Below, piece after piece: positions 4,345 to 21,030 of a DNA stretch of 64,000 bases. Position 1 is the stretch's first letter. Every line of letters starts with the position of its first letter. The notes under the pieces are model-generated. The model was not told the origin of the DNA, did no database searches, and saw nothing but the letters and a program-made list of their open reading frames with translations. This DNA comes from Desulfoscipio gibsoniae DSM 7213 (GTDB lineage: Bacteria; Bacillota; Desulfotomaculia; Desulfotomaculales; Desulfallaceae): assembly GCF_000233715.2 (NCBI RefSeq), contig NC_021184.1, positions 868,001 to 932,000 on the forward strand. Reading direction: 5' to 3'. Both the position numbers and the translations under genes were made by a program.

Positions 4345-5439
4345 TTACCCGGTTGCGCATGCCTGGCCCTTTATGAAATTGATATTTTTCCGGTCGAAGC
4401 CTAGAGTAACAGTTTTGTTTTCCCGCAGGCCAAGCTCAAAAAACCGGTTAGGAGTGATGTAGGCTGTAAAATTAACTTGCCCGGATTGTACTTTGACTTC
4501 GGAATAAACACCATTATTGGAAATGGTTAAGACAGTTCCCGTCAATTGATAATCGGTCTTAAGGGCGCCATTACCCACCACTATATCCTCCGGCCTTAAT
4601 CCTATGAAATACTTATTATTACCTCCGGTAGTTGGATGTTTGCCTGCACTTTGTTCTTCCGGCACCTGCATGTCAAGCTGCAGCACATCACCCAGCATCG
4701 CTTTACCATTGACCTGGTGCAGCGCAAATACGTTTTTCATACCTACAAATTCAGCTACAAATTGAGAGTTGGGCATTTTAAACACTTCTTCAGTAGTACC
4801 TACCTGCTGAACCTCGCCATTTTTAATTATGGCTACTCTTTCGGCCAGGGAAAAAACTTCACTGAAATTATGTGTAACCATTAAGGTGGTAATTTTTAGA
4901 GCGCTATGCAATGCTTTAATTTCCGCTTGCACTGTTTCTTTGGTATTGGTGTCTAAGGCACTGAACGGTTCGCCCAGTAAAAGGATATCAGGTTCCACAA
5001 TCAATGCCCGGGCCAGCGCTACCCGTTGTTTTTCGCCGCCGCTGAGATTATCGGGATAGCGCTTTAGCAGGTGATCGATACCCAGCATTTCCACAAGCAT
5101 ATGTAACATTTCAGGCTTACCTGCAACGTTCCGTTTTTTCTTAAATCTTAGCCCGTATTGAATATTGGCCAGTACATTAAGGTGCGGGAAAAGGGCGTAA
5201 TCCTGATAGACTATGGAAATATTCCTTTGCTCCGGTTTTAAGTGGGTAACATCCCGTCTGTGAAAAAAAAATCGCCCACCTGACGGCTGCTTAATGCCGG
5301 CGATAGTTTCCAAAAGCACTGTTTTGCCTGACCCGGTGGGGCCTAAGAGAGCAAAAAACTCCCCTTGATTAATGGTCAGTTGAATGTTTCGCAGGGCAAA
5401 TCCAAACAAATTTACGTTTAAATCACGTATTTCCAGCAT
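4345..5439 (-). CDS. wtpC: Tungstate/molybdate ABC transporter ATP-binding protein with altered Walker B
   Basis: A 364-residue ATPase of the ModC/WtpC type. It has Walker A (GPTGSGKT), a Q-loop (VYQDYALFPHLN), the signature LSGGEKQR and a C-terminal TOBE-like region of about 110 residues (GLRPEDI onward) that in this family senses oxyanion. The Walker B motif reads ILLLGEPFSALD: the usual Asp before the catalytic Glu is Gly, encoded by GGC at 4974-4972, one base away from GAC. The catalytic Glu remains. ATG 5439 is chosen for its AGAGGTG site; the gene overlaps the permease gene by 17 bases, indicating translational coupling. Confidence 0.85.
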   Translation of the reverse strand: MLEIRDLNVNLFGFALRNIQLTINQGEFFALLGPTGSGKTVLLETIAGIKQPSGGRFFFHRRDVTHLKPEQRNISIVYQDYALFPHLNVLANIQYGLRFKKKRNVAGKPEMLHMLVEMLGIDHLLKRYPDNLSGGEKQRVALARALIVEPDILLLGEPFSALDTNTKETVQAEIKALHSALKITTLMVTHNFSEVFSLAERVAIIKNGEVQQVGTTEEVFKMPNSQFVAEFVGMKNVFALHQVNGKAMLGDVLQLDMQVPEEQSAGKHPTTGGNNKYFIGLRPEDIVVGNGALKTDYQLTGTVLTISNNGVYSEVKVQSGQVNFTAYITPNRFFELGLRENKTVTLGFDRKNINFIKGQACATG

Positions 5440-6220
5440 CTCGCACACCTCTTTGAGCAATAACTCGCAATACAATAAATATAGCCAGCGATATAGCTAT
5501 TAAAATAGCGGAGACCGGTTTAGAATACTCCAGCCCGAAGGAATTAAACCGATCGAAAATTAAGGTGGGCGCAATCATGGGGTGGTAGGTAAGGATAATC
5601 ACCGCTCCAAATTCACTTATGGAACGGGCCCAGGTTAGAATCATCCCCGTTAATATGCCACGCCAGCCAACGGAAAAGGTGATCAGTATGAAGGTTTGCA
5701 TGTGAGTGGCCCCAAGGGTACGGGAGACGTACTCCAGTTTGGGCGATATGGCTGCAAATGAATCCTTGGCCGCGTTAATCAGTAAAGGCATACTTACAAA
5801 TGTCATAGCGGTGACAATGCCAATACGGGTACCAACAACCTCTAGTCCCAGGTTTTCCAGCAATCTGCCCAGCCAGCACTGCTGGCTTAAAACCGTTAAT
5901 AAAATAATGCCCACCACAGTATGAGGAATAACTATGGGAATATCGATGATGCTTTCCACCAATCTTTTGCCTCTAAATTCATTGCGGGCCAAAAAATAGG
6001 CAAAAGGTACACCAAAAATGAACACAATCATAGTAGTAATTGTGGCCGTGTATATACTGTTCCAAATTGCGGCCAACACTTCCCGATCTCTTAAAGTTTG
6101 CAATAGTATCTGGCCGTCAGTGGTGATTAATGAGTTGATTATTGGATACATAATAAATAGAAGAATTAAAAGGCCCAAAAAAGCAGAGGTTAAATATAAC
6201 TTCTCAGTTTTCAATTTCAT
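5423..6220 (-). CDS. wtpB: Tungstate/molybdate ABC transporter permease
   Basis: A 265-residue integral membrane protein with about six hydrophobic helices and the binding-protein-dependent permease (EAA-loop) region SRTLGATHMQTFILITFSVGW, followed by GMILTWARSISEFGAVIIL, which is close to the typical end of ModB/WtpB proteins. It should form the membrane channel with the overlapping ATPase gene. A gap of 241 bases separates it from the binding protein gene upstream; that gap holds an imperfect hairpin at about 6250-6280 (GCTGCCGGG with CCCCGACAGC) that could tune expression between the binding protein and the channel. Confidence 0.85.
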   Translation of the reverse strand: MKLKTEKLYLTSAFLGLLILLFIMYPIINSLITTDGQILLQTLRDREVLAAIWNSIYTATITTMIVFIFGVPFAYFLARNEFRGKRLVESIIDIPIVIPHTVVGIILLTVLSQQCWLGRLLENLGLEVVGTRIGIVTAMTFVSMPLLINAAKDSFAAISPKLEYVSRTLGATHMQTFILITFSVGWRGILTGMILTWARSISEFGAVIILTYHPMIAPTLIFDRFNSFGLEYSKPVSAILIAISLAIFIVLRVIAQRGVRDAGNT

Positions 6221-6461: not shown

Positions 6462-7475
6462 CTACCCGGTGATTTCCCGTAACTCCTCGGGCATGGCCTC
6501 TTCACCCTTTATGACTAGCGGATCTTCAATGGGCTGGCCATTGTCTTCCATTATTTTCAAACCTTTATCTTTGCTCAGCAAAAACTTTAAGAATTCAATG
6601 GCGTTCGCCTGGTTGGGTGCATTTTTTATCAGCGTGACACCGTATACAATTGGCATGCCCACCTGGGTAATCACTTCGCCCGGCTGTTTTCCGGTGGTAT
6701 CTACCGTGGCTTGTTTATAAAATTCGGCCTGGTTAAGATCGCTTAAATTAACCTGTGGCGGCAACTCGACATAAGGCATATTGTGCTGCTCGGCTACAGA
6801 ACGATAGATAAATAGGTAATCAAGAGCCCCGGATTCTACCATAGCCAGCAAGTCGGTTTCTTTGGGTCTGATATTGCGAGCCGGGCGCTTTTCATCTAAC
6901 TTTTGGTACAAATCAGATATTTGATAGTGTTCGGCAGCCAGCTGCCAAACCATCAGTGCCCGGTAGCCGCATGGGTCGGCGTTAGGATCGCTGTGCCCGT
7001 ACTCAACACCTTCCCGCAACAGTATTTCCGGCCAGTTATCACTGTTTATTTCATCCTTGTATTTACTGTGCTCCGAATACATGATAACCATTTCATTTTT
7101 AGCAAATAGCGCATTCCATTCTGCAAAATCGGGAATCAGCAAATTATCAATTACCGCATAGTCCGCCGAAGCAACTATGTCGGCAGGCTTGCCTAGATCG
7201 GTGACCTTTTTAGCACACTCACGGCTACCCGCAGCTTCTCTTTGTACATCCACGCCCGGGTGCAGCAGCTCAAATTCTTTTTCCATCTGGTCAAATGGCA
7301 CTGATAAACTACCGGCGTGGAAGATAATTAACTTGCCGGTTAGATTCGAAGACGCTTGTCCTTCATTGATCGGCTGATTAGAATTGTCAGCATCGGTAGC
7401 CCCGGAACAGCCCGCCACAAAGGCAATAGCTATAATTAGGTATAACAGTAACAGTTTTTTGCTAAGTTTAAGCAT
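6462..7475 (-). CDS. wtpA: Tungstate/molybdate-binding lipoprotein
   Basis: A 337-residue extracellular solute-binding lipoprotein: the signal peptide ends in the lipobox FVAGC, so Cys is lipidated. The fold start IIFHAGSLSVPFDQMEKEFE, followed by AAGSRECAKKVTD and DIVASADYAVID, is the hallmark of the WtpA/ModA-like oxyanion binders (Ser in HAGSL and the SADY region coordinate the anion). Asp, Glu and Tyr positions fit WtpA, which prefers tungstate, better than ModA. ATG 7475 follows an AGAGAGG site. The upstream leader carries two Moco/Tuco-type riboswitches, so cofactor level should control this operon. Confidence 0.88.
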   Translation of the reverse strand: MLKLSKKLLLLYLIIAIAFVAGCSGATDADNSNQPINEGQASSNLTGKLIIFHAGSLSVPFDQMEKEFELLHPGVDVQREAAGSRECAKKVTDLGKPADIVASADYAVIDNLLIPDFAEWNALFAKNEMVIMYSEHSKYKDEINSDNWPEILLREGVEYGHSDPNADPCGYRALMVWQLAAEHYQISDLYQKLDEKRPARNIRPKETDLLAMVESGALDYLFIYRSVAEQHNMPYVELPPQVNLSDLNQAEFYKQATVDTTGKQPGEVITQVGMPIVYGVTLIKNAPNQANAIEFLKFLLSKDKGLKIMEDNGQPIEDPLVIKGEEAMPEELREITG

Positions 7476-7539
7476 TTTTATAACCTCTCTTTCTTTTAAT
7501 TGCTGTTGCATATAACTAAGGCAACAATCGCTTCCTCAT

Positions 7540-7584
7540 AAAAAATAGGCCGGGTTTGCTACGCAACAAAATAACCCGGCCTAC
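7540..7584 (-). terminator. Intrinsic terminator of the proximal riboswitch
   Basis: Read on the minus strand, TAGGCCGGGTT (7583-7573) pairs perfectly over 11 bases with AACCCGGCCTA (7556-7546) and is followed by six T residues. It lies between riboswitch 1 and wtpA, the position expected for the expression platform of a switch that works by premature termination. Confidence 0.85.
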
Positions 7585-7605
7585 TATTTCTTGCACATGA
7601 TAAAA

Positions 7606-7704
7606 CCCTCCTTTCCGCACCGGGAGGCACGGTAGTTTCCCACCGCACCCTGTCGGCCCGCTCACCCTGGCCGTTCGTTGGCTGTAGGCGTCCGGGCTCG
7701 GAGA
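7606..7704 (-). promoter_or_regulatory. Moco/Tuco-type riboswitch 1 (proximal to wtpA)
   Basis: On the minus strand the segment starts with CTCCGAGCCCGGACGCC, contains GCCGACAGGGTG and GTGGGAAACTACCG, and ends with GCCTCCCGGTGCGGAAAGGAG-like conserved bases. These are the conserved blocks of the Moco RNA motif (compare GCCUCCCG and GGAAAGG in the E. coli moaA leader). CTCC at 7608-7611 and CTCGGAG at 7697-7703 close the outer P1 stem. The downstream genes encode a tungstate/molybdate transporter, so binding of molybdenum or tungsten cofactor and switching off uptake is the expected role. Which cofactor is bound cannot be told by eye. Confidence 0.82.
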
Positions 7705-7718
7705 ATATGTATTTATAT

Positions 7719-7755
7719 AAAAAACCCGCCATTGCGGGGAAAATGCAAAGGCGGG
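7719..7755 (-). terminator. Intrinsic terminator of the distal riboswitch
   Basis: On the minus strand CCCGCC (7755-7750) pairs with GGCGGG (7730-7725) and is followed by a run of six T. It sits directly after riboswitch 2 and before riboswitch 1, so each switch appears to have its own terminator. Confidence 0.75.
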
Positions 7756-7774
7756 CCGCTAAAGCCTGTCAATT

Positions 7775-7870
7775 ATCTCCTTACCGCAATGGGAGGCATG
7801 CCGGTTTCCCGATACACCCTGTCGGTCCAGCAGCCATAACGCCATGTTTTAGGCCGGCGGACTCGGAGAA
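7775..7870 (-). promoter_or_regulatory. Moco/Tuco-type riboswitch 2 (distal)
   Basis: A second copy of the same RNA motif lies about 70 bases upstream of riboswitch 1. It starts with CTCCGAGTCCGCC, contains ACCGACAGGGTG and GGGAAACCGG, and ends with GCCTCCCATTGCGGTAAGGAG-like blocks; CTCC (7777-7780) and CTCGGAG (7862-7868) close the stem. The sequence differs clearly from copy 1 in the variable stems, so it is not a recent duplication. The stretch from 7871 to 8115 upstream should hold the promoter, but I could not fix its boxes. Confidence 0.8.
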
Positions 7871-8115
7871 AGCATTCGTTTTGAGCATATTTTCTATATT
7901 TCTCCGTGGATTGCCATTATTCCTTTGTAAATGCTCAAAAGAATTTAACTTAAGAAGTTATGCCCATGTGCTGCGGTACCTATGCGGGTGTGCTTTGCTG
8001 TGCAACGCAACGATCATTGTCCAGCCTGCTAGGTGATCAGTGTTTTTTTAGGGTAGTCTTAATAGCTAGACCTGCAATTAGACATAAAAGCTTGATGCTC
8101 GTTAATATATTGAGA

Positions 8116-8817
8116 TTAATGACCGCATGCGGCAATAAATTCCTTAATCTCTATTACAGGTTGATAAAAAATATCCTGAACCGAACCTATCTGTTCCAAC
8201 CGGCCGTTGGCAATAACGCCGATTTTATCCGCGAGTTCACGTGCCTCGGTAAAATCGTGAGTAACATAGAGGGTCGTTAAATTCAACCTGCTATGGAGCG
8301 TCTTGATTTCTTTGCGAATGCTTTTTGCGGTAGCGGGATCAAGGCTTGCCAGTGGTTCATCCAGGAGTAAAATTTTTGGTTCCCTGATCAGAGCACGTGC
8401 TAAGCCCACACGTCTTTTTTCACCTCCGCTTAAATCCTTCGGATAGCGGCATTTTAAGTGACCGATATGTAAAAGGTCAAGCATTGACTCAACCTTGGTG
8501 GTTATTTTGTCAGCCGGGTAGCCGGTTGCCCGCAGGGCAAAAGAGATATTATTAAATGTATTCAAATGGGGAAACAAGTATATATCCTGAAGAAGATAAC
8601 CAATATCACGTTTTTCAGTAGGGATGTTATTCATATTCTGCTGGTTAAAATATACTTCTCCCTGGTATCCTGCTAATCCCGCAATTACATTTAATAACGT
8701 GCTCTTGCCTGCACCTGTGTAACCCAGAAACACAACCAGTTCGCCGGCTTTTATGTCCAGGGTTATGTTTTTTAAACAGTAAGGCGTGGTAATATTTTGC
8801 AAGCGAATAAAAGACAT
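8116..8817 (-). CDS. ABC transporter ATP-binding protein of the NitT/TauT-like oxyanion module
   Basis: A 233-residue nucleotide-binding protein with Walker A (GYTGAGKST), Q-loop (LLQDIYLFPHLN), signature LSGGEKRR and intact Walker B (ILLLDEP), plus the switch His in YVTHDF. No C-terminal TOBE domain follows. By sequence it leans toward ModC/PotA-type ATPases although its permease is SsuC-like. ATG 8817 is preceded by GGAGGT; the gene start is 2 bases after the permease stop, so the two are translated together. It is the last gene of the operon that starts with the DUF364-type gene. Confidence 0.85.
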   Translation of the reverse strand: MSFIRLQNITTPYCLKNITLDIKAGELVVFLGYTGAGKSTLLNVIAGLAGYQGEVYFNQQNMNNIPTEKRDIGYLLQDIYLFPHLNTFNNISFALRATGYPADKITTKVESMLDLLHIGHLKCRYPKDLSGGEKRRVGLARALIREPKILLLDEPLASLDPATAKSIRKEIKTLHSRLNLTTLYVTHDFTEARELADKIGVIANGRLEQIGSVQDIFYQPVIEIKEFIAACGH

Positions 8818-8819
8818 GT

Positions 8820-9584
8820 TTACCTCCATGTGCCTGTTGTTTTATATTCCAACCACAAAAACATGCGCTCAAAGATTGTGCACATCATGGACAACAGCAC
8901 TAAACAAACTAAAATAACATCTACTCTAATCAAGGATTCAGCATTGATCAGCAGTGCACCAATACCCGTGGGGATGGCAAACATTTCTGCCGCTATTACA
9001 GTACGCCAGACCATACCCGCTTCCAAGCGCAAACCAGTAAAAATATTGGGTAAAGCCATGGGAAGTGTTACATGCCAAAGGATAAACCAGGGAGATGCCC
9101 CGAGGGTACGGGCTGTTTTTATATACTCATGCTGTACCCCTTTAATCCCAGTCAATGTATTATACGCAACCGGGAAAAACGCACAGATGAAAATCAGAGT
9201 AACCGGCAGCGCCTCATTGATGCCGATCCACAACATTAACAGCGGCAGCCATCCTAATGTTGGAATGGGGAACAGCATACTTATCAGCGGGCTCAAACTG
9301 CGTTCCACCACCTTGTTTAAGCCCATTAAAATACCTACTAATAAACCGGCCAGGCTTCCCAAAGAATAGCCGATTAAGACCCTTATTAGACTTGACCCCA
9401 GGCTTTCAAGCAGTATACCGTCGCCAAGTAAAAACCAAAATTCAATAACCACCTTACTTAAGGGTGGAAATAACGGCGTTTGGGTGATGTGTGCCAGTAT
9501 TTCCCACGAGGTAAGGAAAAAACATATAGGCAGTGGGTATAACAAATTGTTTATGGTTATCTCTGGTTTGACTAACTTGATCAT
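8820..9584 (-). CDS. ABC transporter permease, NitT/TauT (SsuC-like) family
   Basis: A 254-residue membrane protein with six or so helices. The sequences SLGSLAGLLVGILMG, FPIPTLGWLPLLMLWIG and the EAA loop KTARTLGASPWFILWHVTLP are typical of SsuC/TauC/NrtB permeases for sulfonates, taurine or nitrate and related ligands. It lies between the binding protein (20 bases upstream) and the ATPase gene (2 bases downstream). The ligand here is probably not sulfonate, given the ModE-type regulator and the tungstate transporter beside it, but this is inference. Confidence 0.87.
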   Translation of the reverse strand: MIKLVKPEITINNLLYPLPICFFLTSWEILAHITQTPLFPPLSKVVIEFWFLLGDGILLESLGSSLIRVLIGYSLGSLAGLLVGILMGLNKVVERSLSPLISMLFPIPTLGWLPLLMLWIGINEALPVTLIFICAFFPVAYNTLTGIKGVQHEYIKTARTLGASPWFILWHVTLPMALPNIFTGLRLEAGMVWRTVIAAEMFAIPTGIGALLINAESLIRVDVILVCLVLLSMMCTIFERMFLWLEYKTTGTWR

Positions 9585-9603
9585 AGACTAATCTCTTCTT
9601 TCA

Positions 9604-10611
9604 TCAATTGACTGACATGATTTCTCCAGCGTCAAAAGATTTTGTTATATATCCTAAAGCATGCATCTTGTTGATGATGGTCTGTACATCTTGTTGAGAA
9701 ATTTCAGGAGTACTTCTAAGATTGGTCATTGATTTAGCGACTAGTTCCGGAGTTACTTCCAGGTTTGCCTGCGGACTTTTGGTCTCTTCTTTTACTTTTG
9801 ACTGGTTTATGTTTAAGTTTTGAGCTATGATTAGAGCCGCTTCTTGCGGGTATGTATTGATCAAATCAATGCTCTTTTTATTAATCTCTTTAAGATTTTC
9901 AACAGCTTCCGGATGTTTTTCCAAGAAATCTTCAGTAACCACCATGACGCTCCCCTGCATATCCGGACATATGTCACGGCTGCTGGCCAGCATTTTCATC
10001 CCGGGAAACGATGCGGCCATTGCCGCAAAATGTTCAGGAACAAATACGGCATCTACTTGACCATTGCGTAAAGCCATAAGCTGTTTTGCCCCATTCATCC
10101 GTACGGTATTTGCTAAAACTTTTTTGGCGTTCAGATTTTCTTTTTCCAGCAAAAGCATTTGTATAAAGTCCGTCGTTGTTCCCTTGGGGCCATTGGCAAT
10201 TTTAATATCATCCTTTTCCAGGTCGCGCAAGTCTTTGATTTTAGAGGCATTAACCACCAACCCGTAGCCATCCTTATGTGTACCGCTGATAATTTTTATT
10301 GGCACACCGCCATTTGCATAGGTATATATCGCAGGGACCAGGCACATATAACTAACATCAAAGCCACCTTTGGTAAATGCCGCAGCAACGCCAACGCCGC
10401 TTGCGTAAACATTAACGTCTTCAACACTGAATCCTGCGTCTTCAAAAAGACCTTTGCCCTGGGCGAAATAGAAGGCAGCCGCGTGATCGGTATACTCCAC
10501 CGCCACATTTAAGTTTACGCCTGTATCCTGGGTCGCCGGTGCTTGATTACATCCACCAAGTATAAGCAAACACGCGCTAAAAATAACCAATATAACTAAC
10601 TTCTTGATCAA
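9604..10611 (-). CDS. ABC transporter substrate-binding lipoprotein, NitT/TauT/THI5-like
   Basis: A 335-residue lipoprotein: the signal peptide ends in LILGGC, followed by a short linker. The mature start LNVAVEYTDHAAAFYFAQGKGLFEDAGFSVE is the usual first strand-helix of NMT1/SsuA-type binding proteins, and KGTTTDFIQMLLLEKENL matches their hinge region. The C-terminal half has the expected helices with VPEHFAAMAA. It begins 55 bases after the DUF364-type gene, in the same operon. The ligand is unknown; oxyanion or metal-related compound is suggested only by context. Confidence 0.85.
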   Translation of the reverse strand: MIKKLVILVIFSACLLILGGCNQAPATQDTGVNLNVAVEYTDHAAAFYFAQGKGLFEDAGFSVEDVNVYASGVGVAAAFTKGGFDVSYMCLVPAIYTYANGGVPIKIISGTHKDGYGLVVNASKIKDLRDLEKDDIKIANGPKGTTTDFIQMLLLEKENLNAKKVLANTVRMNGAKQLMALRNGQVDAVFVPEHFAAMAASFPGMKMLASSRDICPDMQGSVMVVTEDFLEKHPEAVENLKEINKKSIDLINTYPQEAALIIAQNLNINQSKVKEETKSPQANLEVTPELVAKSMTNLRSTPEISQQDVQTIINKMHALGYITKSFDAGEIMSVN

Positions 10612-10665
10612 AGTAAACCCCTCCCTTTAAATTCGCCGGGAAAAAACTTGGATTTACATCATTTT

Positions 10666-11394
10666 CTAGCGCCCGTAAAAGCAAACACGGGGTAAAGAAA
10701 ATAGTGCAGCAAGGCCGGCAATGGTGACTCCATAAAAGATGACCGGTTTTCCCCGCTCAAGCTCCGCCAAAGTGTCGTTGACAAGAACAGTCCCCGTAGT
10801 TAAAACAATATCCGCCCAATCTATATTTTTAGCAGTATTGTCAGGACCGCTGATTAAAACTCCGAGCTTTTCCCGCCCAATGTTGTCCGGGTCAAGGTCG
10901 CTGACTTTTATTTTAAAATGCTTGACCAACTCCTCAATCATTGCCGGCTGATAACCAACAAATGCAATTTTAGGTTGACCATAATGTTGGGTGATGTATT
11001 CGGGTAATTGCCGGGCACAAAGCCTGGGTTCTTTATCTTTGCAATGGTCTGTGCCTTGTACTTTTCCTAAATAGCGCATCACTGCGTTAAGGGTGGCCAC
11101 AAATACTGCTCTATTGTGATTAGTATCGAAAGTCAGCCGTAAAACTTCTTCCAACGTACCGTGAAACTGTGCCGGTTGATCCGTGAAAGCCTGCCCCACA
11201 CAGTCTCGATATGTAGCTTGCATCATTACTTCTTTACCTTTGAGCAAAGGAAAATCCGTACGGTCGGGACGGCCAATCGCTTCCTTGGCGGTCAAATCCC
11301 GTGTGGAAACGATATCGATCGCTTCCCCGGAATGTAACCCGGCCTCATCAATAATTACCCGCAATTTTTCTCGGGCTTCTTCCAATAATGACAT
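10666..11394 (-). CDS. DUF4213/DUF364-type Rossmann-like protein
   Basis: A 242-residue protein that I recognise as the family with an N-terminal DUF4213-like part and a C-terminal Rossmann-like part (PF04016, once described as a putative heavy-metal chelating domain). The signs are TYRDCVGQAFTDQP in the first half, KIAFVGYQPAMIEEL, VSDLDPDNIG and TTGTVLVNDTLAELE in the second. No catalytic activity is established for the family. AAGGAGGA precedes ATG 11394. It is the first gene of the operon with the NitT/TauT-type transporter and is downstream of a ModE-like operator, so a role in binding or handling the imported metal or oxyanion is likely but unproven. Confidence 0.75.
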   Translation of the reverse strand: MSLLEEAREKLRVIIDEAGLHSGEAIDIVSTRDLTAKEAIGRPDRTDFPLLKGKEVMMQATYRDCVGQAFTDQPAQFHGTLEEVLRLTFDTNHNRAVFVATLNAVMRYLGKVQGTDHCKDKEPRLCARQLPEYITQHYGQPKIAFVGYQPAMIEELVKHFKIKVSDLDPDNIGREKLGVLISGPDNTAKNIDWADIVLTTGTVLVNDTLAELERGKPVIFYGVTIAGLAALFSLPRVCFYGR

Positions 11395-11436
11395 GTATAA
11401 TCCTCCTTAATAGGTTTTAAGTTTCTTTGGGCAGTT

Positions 11437-11472
11437 ATTATAATATTTGTGTTATACTTTCCAAAGTATAAC
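11437..11472 (-). promoter_or_regulatory. Promoter of the DUF364-ABC operon with ModE-like operator
   Basis: GTTATACTTT (11451-11460) and AAAGTATAAC (11463-11472) form a perfect palindrome of 22 bases. On the minus strand a -35 box TTGGAA (11464-11459) lies inside it and a -10 box TATAAT (11442-11437) follows after 16 bases. Binding at the palindrome would block RNA polymerase. The outer half-sites GTTATACT/AGTATAAC and their distance are the same as in the operator of the regulator gene at 11849-11874 and resemble E. coli ModE sites (CGTTATAT...ATATAACG). Confidence 0.75.
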
Positions 11473-11489
11473 GCCAGCTAAAAAATTTA

Positions 11490-11831
11490 CTATGTTCCAA
11501 ACATCTGTTGAAAATGCTTTTCGTATAGTTGTTCCAGCACCTCCTTTGACTCTTCACGAAAAGCTTTGTATCGTTCCATTAGCAAGCGTCCCTTGGGTGT
11601 CACAGTTGAACCACCACCTGAGTTTCCACCCACCTGTCGAGTTATTAATGAAAAGCCTAAACGGCCTTCAATTGTTTGAATTAAATGCCACGCTTGATTA
11701 TAGGACATCCCCATTTCGGATGCAGCTTTTCTAAGAGAACCCAGCCGGTCTATACCTGTGAGCAAATCATACGGTCCATCACCAAAAGCTTTACCGTTTT
11801 GATTAAGCCAGATTTTACTAACAATGTACAT
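11490..11831 (-). CDS. modE: ModE-type DNA-binding regulator lacking the molybdate-binding domain
   Basis: A 113-residue LysR-like winged-helix protein. The helices GIDRLGSLRKAASEMGMSYNQAW and the motif RQVGGNSGGGSTVTPKGRLL match the N-terminal domain of ModE, the molybdate-responsive repressor. The C-terminal Mop/TOBE domains that bind molybdate in E. coli ModE are absent, so it either senses by another route or needs a partner. ATG 11831 was chosen for its GGAGGG site; the frame is open further upstream, but that part covers the promoter. It is transcribed toward the DUF364-ABC operon and has its own palindromic operator, which suggests autoregulation. Confidence 0.82.
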   Translation of the reverse strand: MYIVSKIWLNQNGKAFGDGPYDLLTGIDRLGSLRKAASEMGMSYNQAWHLIQTIEGRLGFSLITRQVGGNSGGGSTVTPKGRLLMERYKAFREESKEVLEQLYEKHFQQMFGT

Positions 11832-11848
11832 ATAAAATAGACCCTCCA

Positions 11849-11874
11849 GCGTTATACTGACACCAGTATAACGC
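11849..11874 (-). promoter_or_regulatory. ModE-like operator in the regulator's own promoter
   Basis: GCGTTATACTG (11849-11859) and CAGTATAACGC (11864-11874) are perfect 11-base arms around ACAC. On the minus strand the -10 box TATACT falls inside the palindrome and a -35 box TTCACA lies 17 bases upstream. The distance between the GTTATACT half-sites is the same as in the operator at 11451-11472. Confidence 0.75.
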
Positions 11875-12415: not shown

Positions 12416-12754
12416 GTGAAAAAAATAGAAGCCATAATCCGCCCCGACAAATTGGAAGATGTCAAGGAAGCGCTTTCACGTTACGGTATACACGGCATGA
12501 CGGTTAGCCAGGTTTTGGGCTGCGGTACGCAAAGGGGCTGGGTTGGTGTTTACCGCGGCCACGAGTACAGCATTAATCTATTGCCTAAAATTAAGATTGA
12601 GGTTGTTTTAGATGAACGATGTTTAGAGGATGTATTGCAGATCATTTGTGAAACCGCCCGTACCGGTGAGGTTGGGGACGGCAAGGTATTTATTTACCCG
12701 GTGGAGAAGGCGGTGCGCATACGTACCGGGGAAATAAACGAAGATGCTTTTTAA
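12416..12754 (+). CDS. glnK: P-II nitrogen regulatory protein
   Basis: A 112-residue P-II signal protein, which reads 2-oxoglutarate and ATP/ADP to control ammonium uptake and glutamine synthesis. It has the family start MKKIEAIIRPDKLEDVK, the T-loop with YRGHEYSINLLPKIKIE (the Tyr of HEYS is at the usual modification position) and the C-terminal signature TGEVGDGKVFIYPVE. The GTG start follows AGGAGG. It lies 167 bases upstream of the ammonium transporter on the same strand, the classical glnK-amt pairing, so it probably plugs that channel when nitrogen is plentiful. Confidence 0.93.
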   Translation: MKKIEAIIRPDKLEDVKEALSRYGIHGMTVSQVLGCGTQRGWVGVYRGHEYSINLLPKIKIEVVLDERCLEDVLQIICETARTGEVGDGKVFIYPVEKAVRIRTGEINEDAF

Positions 12755-12921
12755 ACAACTTACGAACTAAATATCCCAAAGGTTGGGTTTAAAGGGCAAG
12801 GGCGCTCGTGTTGGTTAATAACCACCGGTGTCCTTATTTTTATTTATTGGGTGTAAAGTGAACATCTAAAAAAACGAAGATATATGACGATAGGCGAAGT
12901 ATATTAAGGGAGTGTGAATTA

Positions 12922-14247
12922 ATGGAACCGGGAATTAAGGATTTAGCTGCCGGTATTGATACTGTCTGGGTGTTGCTTTGCGCAGCGCTGGTTTTCTTCA
13001 TGGAAGCGGGTTTTGCTTTTCTGGAGGCCGGTTTTATCAGGGCTAAAAATTCGCTGAACATTGTGATGAAGGTTTTTACCGACACTACTGTGGGTATGCT
13101 GGGGTTCTGGGCCGTCGGGTTTGGGGTGATGTACGGGCTGGATATGGCTGGTATTTTTGGAGGCAGTGGTTTTTTCTTGGGCGGCAATCTCGAACATATT
13201 GACCTTAGGGTGCCGCTTTATGCCTTCTGGCTGTTTCAGGCTGCATTTGCCGTGGCCGTGGCTTCAATTATCTCGGGTGCGGTGGCTGAACGCATGAAGT
13301 TCGGCCCCTACATTATCTTCACTTTAATTTGCACAGCCTTAATTTATCCTGTGGCAGGGCACTGGATCTGGGGATCCGGAGGCTGGCTGAGTAATCTAGG
13401 GATGATGGATTTTGCCGGTTCCGCGGCGGTGCATGCCGTGGGCGGCTGGGCGGCTCTGGCGGCGGTAACAGTACTGGGGCCACGTCGAGAAAAATATAAC
13501 AAAGACGGCAGTATTAATGTGCTGCCGGCACATAATATGCACCTGGCTTTCCTGGGCACGTTTATACTATGGTTCGGCTGGTTTGGCTTTAACCCGGGCA
13601 GTTCACTTTCCGGGCTTGATCTTAATATCGCTCGCATAGCGCTTACCACTAACCTCGCCGCCGCGGCCGGCGGTACCACAGGTATTATTTTCACTATGCG
13701 ACGTTATGGAAAGGCTGATCCCAGTATGGCCGCCAACGGGGCCCTGGCCGGCCTGGCGGCGATTACGGCGGGCACAGCTTATGTAGGACCTGGCAGCGCG
13801 GTAATTATTGGTGCTGTGGCCGGTATGCTGGTGGTGCTGGCGGTGGAGTTTTTTGACCGGATCAAGGCTGACGACCCGGTTGGTGCTATTGCGGTCCACG
13901 GGGTAGGGGGCACCTGGGGCGCCCTGGCCGTGGGACTGTTCGCCCGGGAGGGCGGTCTTTTGTTCGGCGGGGGCGCTCACCAGTTGATGGTTCAGGCCCT
14001 TGGGGTGCTGAGCGTATCCCTATGGGCCTTCGGGGCAACCTTTGTTGCGTTTACTCTGCTCAAAGCAACGTTGGGAATCCGCGTATCGGCAGACGAGGAA
14101 TTTGAGGGAATGGACCTTAATGAGCACGGTATCGCCGCTTACACCGGGCTGGTTACCAATTCCCTAAAAGGTTTCGGTCATGCCTCCAGCCAAGAAACCG
14201 AAGAGGCAGCCATACCTATGCCCAACCCGGTGCAGGCGGGCCGCTAA
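12922..14247 (+). CDS. amt: Ammonium transporter
   Basis: A 441-residue Amt/MEP/Rh channel with about eleven membrane helices. The start WVLLCAALVFFMEAGFAFLEAG is the family's first helix, and the pore His pair is visible in AAVHAVGGWAAL and IAVHGVGGTWGAL. NMHLAFLGTFILWFGWFGFNPGS is also diagnostic. The C-terminal tail (about residues 390-441) is cytoplasmic and is where P-II would bind. An RBS (GGGAGTG) precedes ATG 12922. Together with the P-II and glutamine synthetase genes it forms a nitrogen assimilation block. Confidence 0.94.
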   Translation: MEPGIKDLAAGIDTVWVLLCAALVFFMEAGFAFLEAGFIRAKNSLNIVMKVFTDTTVGMLGFWAVGFGVMYGLDMAGIFGGSGFFLGGNLEHIDLRVPLYAFWLFQAAFAVAVASIISGAVAERMKFGPYIIFTLICTALIYPVAGHWIWGSGGWLSNLGMMDFAGSAAVHAVGGWAALAAVTVLGPRREKYNKDGSINVLPAHNMHLAFLGTFILWFGWFGFNPGSSLSGLDLNIARIALTTNLAAAAGGTTGIIFTMRRYGKADPSMAANGALAGLAAITAGTAYVGPGSAVIIGAVAGMLVVLAVEFFDRIKADDPVGAIAVHGVGGTWGALAVGLFAREGGLLFGGGAHQLMVQALGVLSVSLWAFGATFVAFTLLKATLGIRVSADEEFEGMDLNEHGIAAYTGLVTNSLKGFGHASSQETEEAAIPMPNPVQAGR

Positions 14248-14907
14248 TAACAGCAGCAGGTGAGACAGGGGGACGTTTCATTTGTCTTATTTTTTCTAAG
14301 GCAACTTCCCCCCTCTTGTTTTTTCTTACTTTCTTTTTTTTAGAAACATTCTAGACAAATGACAAATGCTAGACAAAGGAAAGTTATCCAAGTTATCCTA
14401 TCTTTCAACATCATCCTTTTCTATTAAGACATGCTTGACCATCAGGTTATGGTAATATTATGGTAATATGACGAAACGTTTTCTTTTCTTTATTTCTCGA
14501 CCAGTATGTGTTAGTAATCACTTTATCCTTATATTTCCATAAAAGTACAAAACAAACGAAACGTTGTCAATGTACTTTTATGTTTCACTATCTATCTCAA
14601 GATAGGCGAAACCTTCCCCCATAACGATGTCATCTTATCTTTTCTAGGTCAGGCGAAGCGTCACTTTGTCATCCTTGTCATCCTTGTCATCAGACAAACG
14701 AAACGTCCCCCTGTCCTGCCCCCTGTCATGCCAAGCATAAGTTAGTAATATGGAGCAGGCCAATCAAAACGTCATAAATGTATTTCATAAGCCCGTATTG
14801 GATAAACAGAGGCTGTATTAGAAGTTGGCTAATTTTTTAATACTTTTATATCATTAAGAAGCGGGTGATTTATAATTAAAAATTATAGTTAAAGGGGGTT
14901 AAATAAA
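14248..14907. repeat. 660-base non-coding stretch filled with decayed family A repeats
   Basis: Good copies lie at 14264-14289 and 14692-14716. Between them the core CGAAACGT recurs in degraded form near 14471, 14558, 14606 and 14652, often ending in GTC. A perfect 12-base hairpin, CATAAAAGTACA (14538-14549) with TGTACTTTTATG (14571-14582), carries one such core in its loop. TATAATT-AAA-AATTATA (14871-14887) lies just ahead of the glutamine synthetase ribosome binding site. No gene was seen. Confidence 0.65.
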
Positions 14908-16266
14908 ATTAATACGGAGGAGCTTGAAGAAAAAAATCTGGATGTTAAAAAACAACAAGTTTTTAATAGAGTAATAAATGAAGGCATCGAATTCATCAGG
15001 CTGCAATTTATTGATGTTTTCGGTGTTTTAAAAAGTGTCAATGTTACACCGGATGAATTGGAGGATGCCCTGGAGGGCAACTTAATGTTCGACGGTTCCT
15101 CGATTGACGGATTTGCTAGAATTAATGAGTCCGACCAGTGTTTGGTGCCGGACCCGGACACCTTTCAGTTTATGCCCTGGAGGCCGACTGAAAAAGGTGT
15201 GGCCCGAATGATTTGCGATGTTTACAATCCCGATGGGACGCCCTTTGAAGGATGCCCAAGGGGAATATTAAAGCGTGTAATAAAAGAAGCCAGGGAAATG
15301 GGTTATGAGCTAAATATGGGGCCCGAAGGAGAGTTTTTTCTTTTCCACACTGACTCAGATGGGAGTCCAACTCTTCATATTCACGATAAAGCGGGATATT
15401 TTGATTTAGCACCCATTGACCATGGCGAAGACGCCAGAAGAGATATAGTATTAACAATGAAGCAAATGGGTTTTAGAATAGAAGCTTCCCATCACGAAGT
15501 AGCTTCGGGACAGCATGAAATTGATTTTAAATACGGCGAGGCGTTGAAAACCGCCGATCAATGGGTTACTTTTCGTGACGTGGTTAAAAATATAGCTAAG
15601 AAACACGGGCTTTATGCCACATTCATGCCCAAGCCCCTAGCGGGAGAAAACGGTTCTGCTATGCATTGTAACCAGTCGTTATTTAAAGATAATAAAAATG
15701 TCTTTTACGATATAAACGGCAAATATAAATTAAGCAATATTGCTTTTAACTACATGGCCGGGTTACTAAAGCATGCTAAAGGCATGACAGCTATTGGAAA
15801 CCCCATAGTTAACAGTTATAAAAGATTAAAGCCTGGTTATGAAGCACCTACTCATATAGCATGGTCTAATTCAAACCGCAGCACTTTAATCAGAATTCCT
15901 GTCCGGCGGGGTAGTGCAACCCGCATTGAGCTTAGGAATCCTGATCCCGTTGCCAATCCTTATCTGGTGTTTGCGGTAATGTTAAAAGCAGGGATGGAGG
16001 GTATTAAAAACAAACTTATGCCCCCACCCCCGGTTGAAGAGGATATTTATAATCTATCAGAGAAACAAAGAAAAGCTTTAGATATAGATTATCTGCCCAG
16101 GGATTTGTTTGCTGCTTTAAAAGAAATGGAAAAGGATCCTCTAATAGAACAGGCAATAGGTTCTCATTGTTATAATCGTTTTTTAGAAGGTAAATATAAA
16201 GAATGGCATGAATATGCCGAACAAGTGCATCAATGGGAGATAAAGCATTATTTGGCTAAGTATTAG
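14908..16266 (+). CDS. glnA: Glutamine synthetase, type I, with apparent ATT start codon
   Basis: A 452-residue GSI enzyme (glutamate + ammonia + ATP to glutamine). Family motifs: FIRLQFIDVFGVLK near the N-terminus, MFDGSSIDGFARI, the active-site GPEGEFFLF, ASHHEVASGQHEID, AMHCNQSLF and NPYLVFAVMLKAG; the last residues HYLAKY are a normal end. The conserved N-terminal domain runs in frame upstream of any ATG, GTG or TTG as far as the stop at 14890-14892. The only well-placed start is ATT 14908, nine bases after AAAGGGGG. A start at TTG 15058 would delete the conserved beta-grasp domain. Length fits the GSI-alpha group. Confidence 0.88.
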   Translation: MNTEELEEKNLDVKKQQVFNRVINEGIEFIRLQFIDVFGVLKSVNVTPDELEDALEGNLMFDGSSIDGFARINESDQCLVPDPDTFQFMPWRPTEKGVARMICDVYNPDGTPFEGCPRGILKRVIKEAREMGYELNMGPEGEFFLFHTDSDGSPTLHIHDKAGYFDLAPIDHGEDARRDIVLTMKQMGFRIEASHHEVASGQHEIDFKYGEALKTADQWVTFRDVVKNIAKKHGLYATFMPKPLAGENGSAMHCNQSLFKDNKNVFYDINGKYKLSNIAFNYMAGLLKHAKGMTAIGNPIVNSYKRLKPGYEAPTHIAWSNSNRSTLIRIPVRRGSATRIELRNPDPVANPYLVFAVMLKAGMEGIKNKLMPPPPVEEDIYNLSEKQRKALDIDYLPRDLFAALKEMEKDPLIEQAIGSHCYNRFLEGKYKEWHEYAEQVHQWEIKHYLAKY

Positions 16267-20856: not shown

Positions 20857-20901
20857 GGGAAAAATAATAGATATAATTTAAGTAAAAATTTACATAAAAA
20901 G

Positions 20902-20990
20902 TTTGGGGAGCTCATGTTATGGGCTGAGAAAGGGCTTTTGAGTACCTGACCCATGAACCTGATCGGGGTAATGCCCGCGTAGGGAAGGTA
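20902..20990 (+). promoter_or_regulatory. TPP riboswitch
   Basis: The leader contains the THI-element blocks GGGGAGCTC, GGGCTGAGA, GACCCATGAACCTGATC-like pairing bases, and GGGTAATGCCCGCGTAGGGAA. These match the thiamine pyrophosphate aptamer. A terminator follows six bases later, and then the thiSGHFEC operon, which makes the thiazole and pyrimidine halves of thiamine; high TPP should stop transcription. Confidence 0.95.
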
Positions 20991-20995
20991 TAGTG

Positions 20996-21030
20996 AAAAA
21001 AGCGCACCTGACTTACGTGGTGCGCTTTTT
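20996..21030 (+). terminator. Terminator of the TPP riboswitch
   Basis: GCGCACC (21002-21008) pairs with GGTGCGC (21019-21025), followed by five T, directly after the aptamer. Confidence 0.88.

Follow-up and report, generated by a model that had tools for sequence, protein, structure and literature searches.

In E. coli, ModE is a molybdenum-responsive regulator. For molybdate and tungstate, three ATP-binding cassette (ABC) importers are counted, namely Mod, Wtp and Tup (PMC11980592). Proteins of the DUF364 family were linked to transport of molybdenum (Mo), tungsten (W) and vanadium in 2010, together with the idea that they chelate heavy metals (PMC2954201), an association that is thus already published and not new here. 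We analyzed a 64,000-nucleotide stretch of Desulfoscipio gibsoniae DSM 7213 (NC_021184.1, positions 868,001 to 932,000; hereafter the window), in which five minus-strand genes encode, in order of transcription, a ModE-type helix-turn-helix (HTH) protein, a DUF364 protein, a lipoprotein, a permease and an ATPase. Judged from its sequence and that of its relatives, this operon probably specifies a molybdenum importer of NitT/TauT fold with a Wtp-type ATPase, placed under ModE control and next to a riboswitch-controlled tungsten importer, a reading to which we assign a probability of about 0.77. The five genes are separated by 95, 54, 19 and -10 nucleotides from modE to the ATPase gene, which is operon-like spacing, and the module comprises the following features:

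11490-11831, minus strand: ModE-type winged-helix DNA-binding protein of 113 amino acids (aa), ATG read from 11831, without a TOBE/molybdate domain; best match TIGR00637, 63.6 bits, under the cut-off of 98.5
10666-11394, minus strand: DUF364-subfamily protein; PF04016, 34.4 bits, cut-off 23
9604-10611, minus strand: NMT1/TauA-fold substrate-binding lipoprotein, proposed receptor of a Mo compound; TTG start, lipobox LGGC
8820-9584, minus strand: TauC/SsuC-type permease, from family matches and bit scores
8116-8829, minus strand: WtpC/ModC-type ATPase without a TOBE domain, from family matches and bit scores
11851-11872, unstranded: ModE-type operator, perfect palindrome GTTATACT-N6-AGTATAAC, overlapping the predicted -10 of the modE promoter
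11451-11472, unstranded: second perfect ModE-type operator with the same palindrome, overlapping the predicted -35 of the DUF364 operon promoter

The initial annotation of this DNA had proposed that a ModE-type protein devoid of its molybdate-binding domain precedes the operon, and had described the latter as a DUF364 protein, an SsuA-like lipoprotein and an SsuC-like permease lying beside wtpABC. Gene calls and family matches bear out both statements: the 113-aa protein matches the DNA-binding model TIGR00637 only, and a Pfam/NCBIfam scan found the HTH and no C-terminal TOBE domain. The ATPase had been called ModC-like, of which the Mod/Wtp type stands, but the nearest relative is the WtpC of the window (181 bits) rather than E. 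coli ModC (118 bits). Two tandem molybdenum cofactor (Moco) riboswitches and the two perfect ModE-type operators are additions to that description.

By its family matches the transporter is a hybrid, with a putative taurine-type receptor and channel coupled to a Wtp/Mod-type motor. The lipoprotein matches PF13379 (70.3 bits) and PF09084 (53.8 bits), and its predicted model (predicted local distance difference test, pLDDT, 93.6) finds E. coli TauA as best match in the PDB (6ssy, E 1.8e-16). Nevertheless, it scores below the curated cut-offs of the SsuA family (TIGR01728, 111.2 bits versus 163.5), far below that of TauA (TIGR01729, 35.2 versus 304.25) and also below that of SBP_bac_11, the family of ModA/WtpA-type proteins (22.7 versus 25). 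Residues invariant among its relatives include H43, H112 and E193. The permease reaches 131.5 bits to TauC and 127.1 to SsuC versus 22.6 to ModB. The ATPase, on the other hand, aligns with the ModC of the same genome at 160 bits and with TauB and SsuB at 98 and 93 bits. The system thus resembles TauABC and SsuABC in binding-protein fold and permease family, but differs from them in its WtpC/ModC-like ATPase, its scores below the curated family cut-offs, the lack of sulfonate monooxygenase or dioxygenase genes at its loci and its Mo/W-type regulators. Conversely, it shares with WtpABC, ModABC and TupABC the genomic context, control by ModE boxes and Moco riboswitches and the ATPase subtype, but has an NMT1-fold binding protein instead of a ModA/WtpA-type one and a TauC-like permease. 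SaoXPA, defined in NCBIfam, is akin in that SaoP is the top NCBIfam match of the permease (146.6 bits), but this is far under the cut-offs of 295 and 300, and SaoA is not among the 25 best matches of the ATPase.

Orthologues of the lipoprotein were found in 8 of 398 Bacillota genomes (E <= 1e-25), and a scan of species genomes with the lipoprotein alignment returned 80 named relatives, mainly from anaerobes. Bacterial hosts were Desulfotomaculaceae, Moorella-like bacteria, Acidaminobacter, Halanaerobium, Synergistaceae, Atribacterota, Dehalococcoidia, delta-proteobacterial lineages, Spirochaetes and Campylobacterota; archaeal hosts were ANME-1/Methanophagales, Methanolliviera and Terraquivivens. 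Together with 3 Bacillota loci these gave 83 loci, which were picked by lipoprotein sequence alone with no selection on context. Genes of a Mo/W panel occurred within 10 kb in 45 of the 83 loci, compared with 1 hit among 20 random 20-kb regions, a small and Bacillota-only control set (Fisher p 3e-5); with enzymes of the dimethyl sulfoxide reductase family added, the counts became 47/83 and 2/20 (p 1.4e-4). The loci of the lipoprotein are thus enriched in Mo/W genes; the initial annotation had suggested a check of this kind. DUF364 was the most frequent neighbor (n = 43), followed by MoeA-like proteins (n = 19), ModE-HTH (n = 17), MocA (n = 15), XdhC (n = 12), YqeB (n = 11), YqeC (n = 7), NifK (n = 7), NifD (n = 6), the Mo-hydroxylase large subunit (n = 6), NifV (n = 4) and NifH (n = 3). 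Chance does not account for the five-gene assembly, given that the surroundings of the lipoprotein gene include DUF364 at 43 loci and a ModE-HTH gene at 17. In 17 other loci the corresponding position is taken by a ModE-HTH protein that shares 25-51% identity with the ModE protein of the window. Neighbor names were checked on representatives against NCBIfam and Pfam (yqeB TIGR03309, yqeC TIGR03172, mocA, xdhC, xanthine dehydrogenase large subunit, nifH TIGR01287, nitrogenase alpha TIGR01862, nifV TIGR02660 and aldehyde oxidoreductase, AFOR).

Some patterns were apparent. Neighbors fall into maturation genes of selenium-dependent Mo hydroxylases, moeA, modE and aldehyde oxidoreductase (AOR), with nitrogenase in archaea and Dehalococcoidia. 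Atribacterota show the order Mo hydroxylase-YqeC-MocA-YqeB-XdhC-(YedE-type transporter, TusA, cysteine desulfurase, Se/S carrier)-ModE-MoeA-DUF364-binding protein-permease-ATPase, and Methanolliviera the order NifD-NifK-binding protein-permease-ATPase-NifV. On the tree, the nif-linked lipoproteins group together with support of 100/100, and at least 4 changes are required for the Moco-linked members, so the two associations are separate. E. coli-type SsuD, SsuE and TauD homologues were found in 0 of 83 loci, and nitrate-assimilation genes were not enriched among the clustered neighbors, although no panel was aimed at them. Two other NitT/TauT loci of the D. gibsoniae genome have no Mo genes nearby.

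We then turned to control. The E. coli ModE consensus is ATCGNTATATA-N6-TATATANCGAT with the core GNTATA-N10-TATANC (PMC545781), and both operators of the window conform to this core. The exact 22-mer has two perfect copies in the 4.86-Mb genome, both at this locus. Upstream of modE, one copy shares bases with a -10-like hexamer, TATACT, whose end is at 11865; upstream of the DUF364 gene, the other does so with a -35-like hexamer, TTGGAA, that starts at 11464. Because both palindromes overlap predicted promoters and fit the consensus core, these two predicted operators most likely serve the ModE protein to repress modE as well as the DUF364 operon. Canonical ModE boxes also precede the operon in several phyla: the pattern GYTATA-N10-TATARC yielded 18 sites in 13 of the 83 loci, none of them more than 600 bp from a gene for ModE, DUF364 or the lipoprotein, compared with 0 in 400 kb of random regions and a mean of 0.1 in Markov shuffles. 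We rejected a genome-wide ModE regulon in D. gibsoniae, given that the exact 22-mer occurs nowhere else and that looser matches are no commoner than those of a reversed control pattern. No ModE-like box lies within 20 kb at the nif cluster of D. gibsoniae. Desulfovibrio ModE is likewise DNA-binding only, and its Mo sensing without TOBE is unexplained (PMC545781). A second DNA-binding-only ModE gene of the genome (L210:6841-11675; G000:C1:1336840-1341674) clusters with a ThiS/MoaD-like small protein, a Wtp/Tup-like permease and moaA.

Within the clade of the window protein the transporter is constant and the sensor varies. ModE occupies the regulatory position in the window, an HTH_17+PBP_like protein in loci L074 and L078 and a Moco riboswitch in L082; the lipoprotein of L074 is 76% identical to that of the window. 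The HTH_17+PBP_like architecture is that of TaoR (PMC11980592). Such regulators adjoin the closest orthologues, L074 and L078, but the window copy has a ModE-HTH protein in their place. In three Moorella-type genomes (G390, G187 and G162, the last on the same contig as L082), riboswitches of family RF01055 that bear the P3 stem lie directly upstream of the lipoprotein gene and score 78.7-86.8 bits. As a separate observation, a TaoR-type regulator and a TauE/TSUP permease adjoin the transporter in genome G014, the host of L078 (L060:10072-12115). A Moco riboswitch is placed between this regulator and the permease (G403:C7:137088-137222), and the TSUP protein may be another Mo/W-linked transporter.

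Downstream of the ATPase gene, two Moco riboswitch aptamers are followed by wtpA, wtpB and wtpC (7511 down to 4345):

7761-7880, minus strand: Moco riboswitch aptamer 1, P3 stem missing (proposed tungsten-cofactor type); RF01055, 61.4 bits
about 7723-7757, minus strand: predicted terminator hairpin after aptamer 1, with U run
7591-7715, minus strand: Moco riboswitch aptamer 2, P3 missing; RF01055, 68.3 bits
about 7545-7585, minus strand: terminator-like hairpin after aptamer 2, -23.7 kcal/mol, z -5.1, with U run
6462-7511, minus strand: wtpA, tungstate/molybdate-binding lipoprotein; NF003196 and TIGR03730 above cut-off
5423-6220, minus strand: wtpB permease; NF040839, 304.8 bits, just below the cut-off of 340
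4345-5475, minus strand: wtpC ATPase with TOBE domain; NF040840, 337 bits (below cut-off), PF03459 and PF08402

Both aptamers exceed the gathering cut-off of 36 bits, and WtpA exceeds the cut-offs of its two equivalog models (408.6 versus 355 and 362.5 versus 242.75). For WtpB and WtpC, the Wtp models are the best matches with scores under cut-off. The P3-less aptamer form is associated with tungsten-cofactor metabolism (Regulski et al., PMC2408646), a rule that is itself a correlation. In the likeliest reading, the two riboswitches in tandem, being of the proposed tungsten-cofactor type, would control wtpABC separately from the ModE operon. The genome contains 17 RF01055 matches, all short (109-125 nucleotides) and several in close pairs, among which P3 was checked for the window pair only.

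The DUF364 protein belongs to a diverged subfamily, found in 70 of 398 Bacillota genomes, and is 22% identical to two canonical paralogues of the same genome. Its predicted model (pLDDT 93.5) has 3npg and 3l5o as nearest structures, with a template modeling score of about 0.5; a single-query sequence search of the PDB gave no match, and a profile search found 3npg. H117, C118, C126 and C238 are invariant in 36 sequences of the subfamily, and in the two aligned canonical paralogues C126 and C238 are absent and C118 is shared; a metal site in the protein is plausible. Compared with Dhaf4260/DUF364 (3l5o, 3npg), the window protein has the same predicted fold and falls under the published Mo/W/V link of the family, but it is diverged, carries the extra C126 and C238 and showed no match to the N-terminal partner domain DUF4213 at E 0.001.

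Taken together, these data suggest how the module could operate. The NMT1-fold lipoprotein would capture a molybdenum species outside the cell, the TauC-like permease would carry it in, driven by the WtpC/ModC-like ATPase, and the DUF364 protein would probably receive or chelate it, as the initial annotation had supposed. The stand-alone ModE domain would repress modE and the operon via both operators, most likely under ample molybdenum supply. On this reading, one cell would maintain importers for tungsten and for molybdenum next to each other, in keeping with a genome that has a row of four PF00148 proteins together with nifH and nifV-like genes (nifHDKEN, requiring Mo), 12 Mo-hydroxylase matches and 15 AFOR matches (requiring W). 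This cell needs both metals and has several Mo/W importers. We rejected the module as the only Mo importer of the genome because ModA-type proteins are encoded elsewhere, one beside a DUF364 relative; perhaps it is an additional importer serving another Mo species or affinity range. Two further loci of this genome are of note: at L071:4375-8465 (G000:C1:1645374-1649465), a canonical DUF364 gene follows tandem Moco riboswitches and genes for a ModA-like binding protein, a permease and an ATPase, giving another Mo/W importer paired with this family, and at L070:5176-12049 (G000:C1:255175-262048), XdhC and MocA genes adjoin a ModABC operon and a close relative of the window DUF364 (48%, local alignment).

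What, then, is imported? The initial annotation had favored another oxyanion or a Mo/W-related compound. Mo/W genes at 45 of 83 loci, Moco riboswitches and ModE boxes agree with that view and narrow it, with molybdenum itself as the likeliest cargo metal. Nitrogenase uses neither molybdopterin nor labile selenium and Mo hydroxylases use no homocitrate, yet both need molybdenum; it is molybdenum, and not pterin, selenium or homocitrate, that nitrogenase, Mo hydroxylases and ModE have in common, which argues for this metal. The recurrence of ModE boxes upstream, the P3-bearing Moco riboswitches ahead of orthologues and an ATPase nearest to WtpC/ModC point the same way. The ligand species could be molybdate, thiomolybdate or organic Mo. 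One tentative and rather unlikely elaboration is that the taurine-fold receptor binds a thiomolybdate or organic Mo complex of sulfidic water and that the His/Cys site of DUF364 strips or holds the metal before assembly of the nitrogenase or Mo-hydroxylase cofactor, in a fourth class of Mo importer; this would explain why anaerobes keep the module despite owning Mod or Wtp. Several observations weigh against a molybdenum importer. Panel genes are lacking at 38 of 83 loci, though many of these are short contigs of metagenome-assembled genomes, the random control is limited as stated above, and the Mo-gene enrichment declines weakly with distance from the lipoprotein (13%, 12% and 9% of genes). 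The transporter of G187 lies among tungsten enzymes (two AORs), ModA-type binding proteins are present at several places of the D. gibsoniae genome, and the DNA-binding-only ModE of the window has no known means of sensing Mo. Finally, wherever the nearest solved structures are known NMT1-fold proteins, their ligands are without exception organic or other small anions, namely taurine, sulfonates, nitrate, bicarbonate, thiamin precursors and pyrroloquinoline quinone, and an organic ligand tied to Mo metabolism is therefore possible.

These points feed into three other explanations. A second W route, taking up tungstate either alone or on a par with molybdate, would fit the adjacent wtpABC, the two AORs of G187, a member from Ca. 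Wolframiiraptoraceae (L135) and the 15 AFOR matches; we nonetheless regard it as improbable, since nitrogenase and Mo-hydroxylase contexts dominate, and ModE boxes and P3-bearing (Moco-type) riboswitches mark the transporter as Mo-regulated, unlike wtpA with its P3-less type. Somewhat less probable still is an organic compound needed along with Mo enzymes, be it a pterin, a purine, a homocitrate-like acid, a selenium compound or a sulfonate. The fold class does bind organic anions, genes for YedE, TusA, cysteine desulfurase and Se/S carrier occur in some Atribacterota loci and a xanthine permease lies near L068, but none of the candidates is common to the nitrogenase, Mo-hydroxylase and AOR contexts, and the lack of SsuD, SsuE and TauD in the 83 loci and control by ModE boxes and Moco riboswitches count against this reading. 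An ordinary NitT/TauT importer of sulfonate or nitrate that sits beside wtpABC by chance is very improbable: the TauA/TauC-like binding protein and permease speak for it, whereas the conserved context and Mo/W-type regulation over many phyla, the hybrid ATPase, the low SsuA- and TauA-family scores and the two NitT/TauT loci of the same genome without Mo genes speak against it. A plain sulfonate or taurine importer was rejected on the grounds that the 83 loci lack sulfonate genes and the scores fall under the family cut-offs; a module found mostly with sulfonate genes, which would have contradicted the initial annotation, is not what we observed.

With molybdenum as its cargo, the operon would most likely be a type of Mo importer not described as such in the open-licence literature that we searched, where we found no published Mo role for NitT/TauT-class transporters. 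It would be a fourth importer, of taurine/nitrate fold and distributed among anaerobic bacteria as well as methane-cycling archaea, and would alter the conclusions on Mo supply that are drawn from genomes, among them those on nitrogen fixation in ANME-1-type archaea and on labile-selenium Mo hydroxylases. Such genes are today probably labelled 'NitT/TauT family transporter', the best NCBIfam matches here being SsuA, TauC and SaoP models. The chelation idea of 2010 for DUF364 would gain a defined partner, and the locus supplies a DNA-binding-only ModE whose Mo sensing is unexplained.

A few minor observations complete the picture. Genes for glnK, amtB and glutamine synthetase adjoin the module on the other strand (window 12416-16266), and archaeal relatives of the transporter likewise lie near amt, PII and nif genes, which may reflect a nitrogen-fixation link or chance. 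In Atribacterota, genes for a YedE-type sulfur/selenium transporter, TusA, cysteine desulfurase and a Se/S carrier are found within a Mo-hydroxylase/transporter cluster (L097:4363-7101). Homologous proteins are encoded directly upstream of the lipoprotein gene at L083:784-2199, L085:5397-6698, L109:2111-3505 and L131:8206-9861, the last matching the Pfam Alginate_exp barrel, as if the importer owned an outer-membrane channel. In ANME-1/Methanophagales, a conserved cysteine-rich protein of ~85 aa immediately precedes the lipoprotein gene (L139:9714-9983, L140, L142, L143 and L145). Lastly, an ordinary-looking thiamin pyrophosphate riboswitch (window 20894-21002, 70.2 bits) lies upstream of a thiamin-synthesis-like gene cluster.

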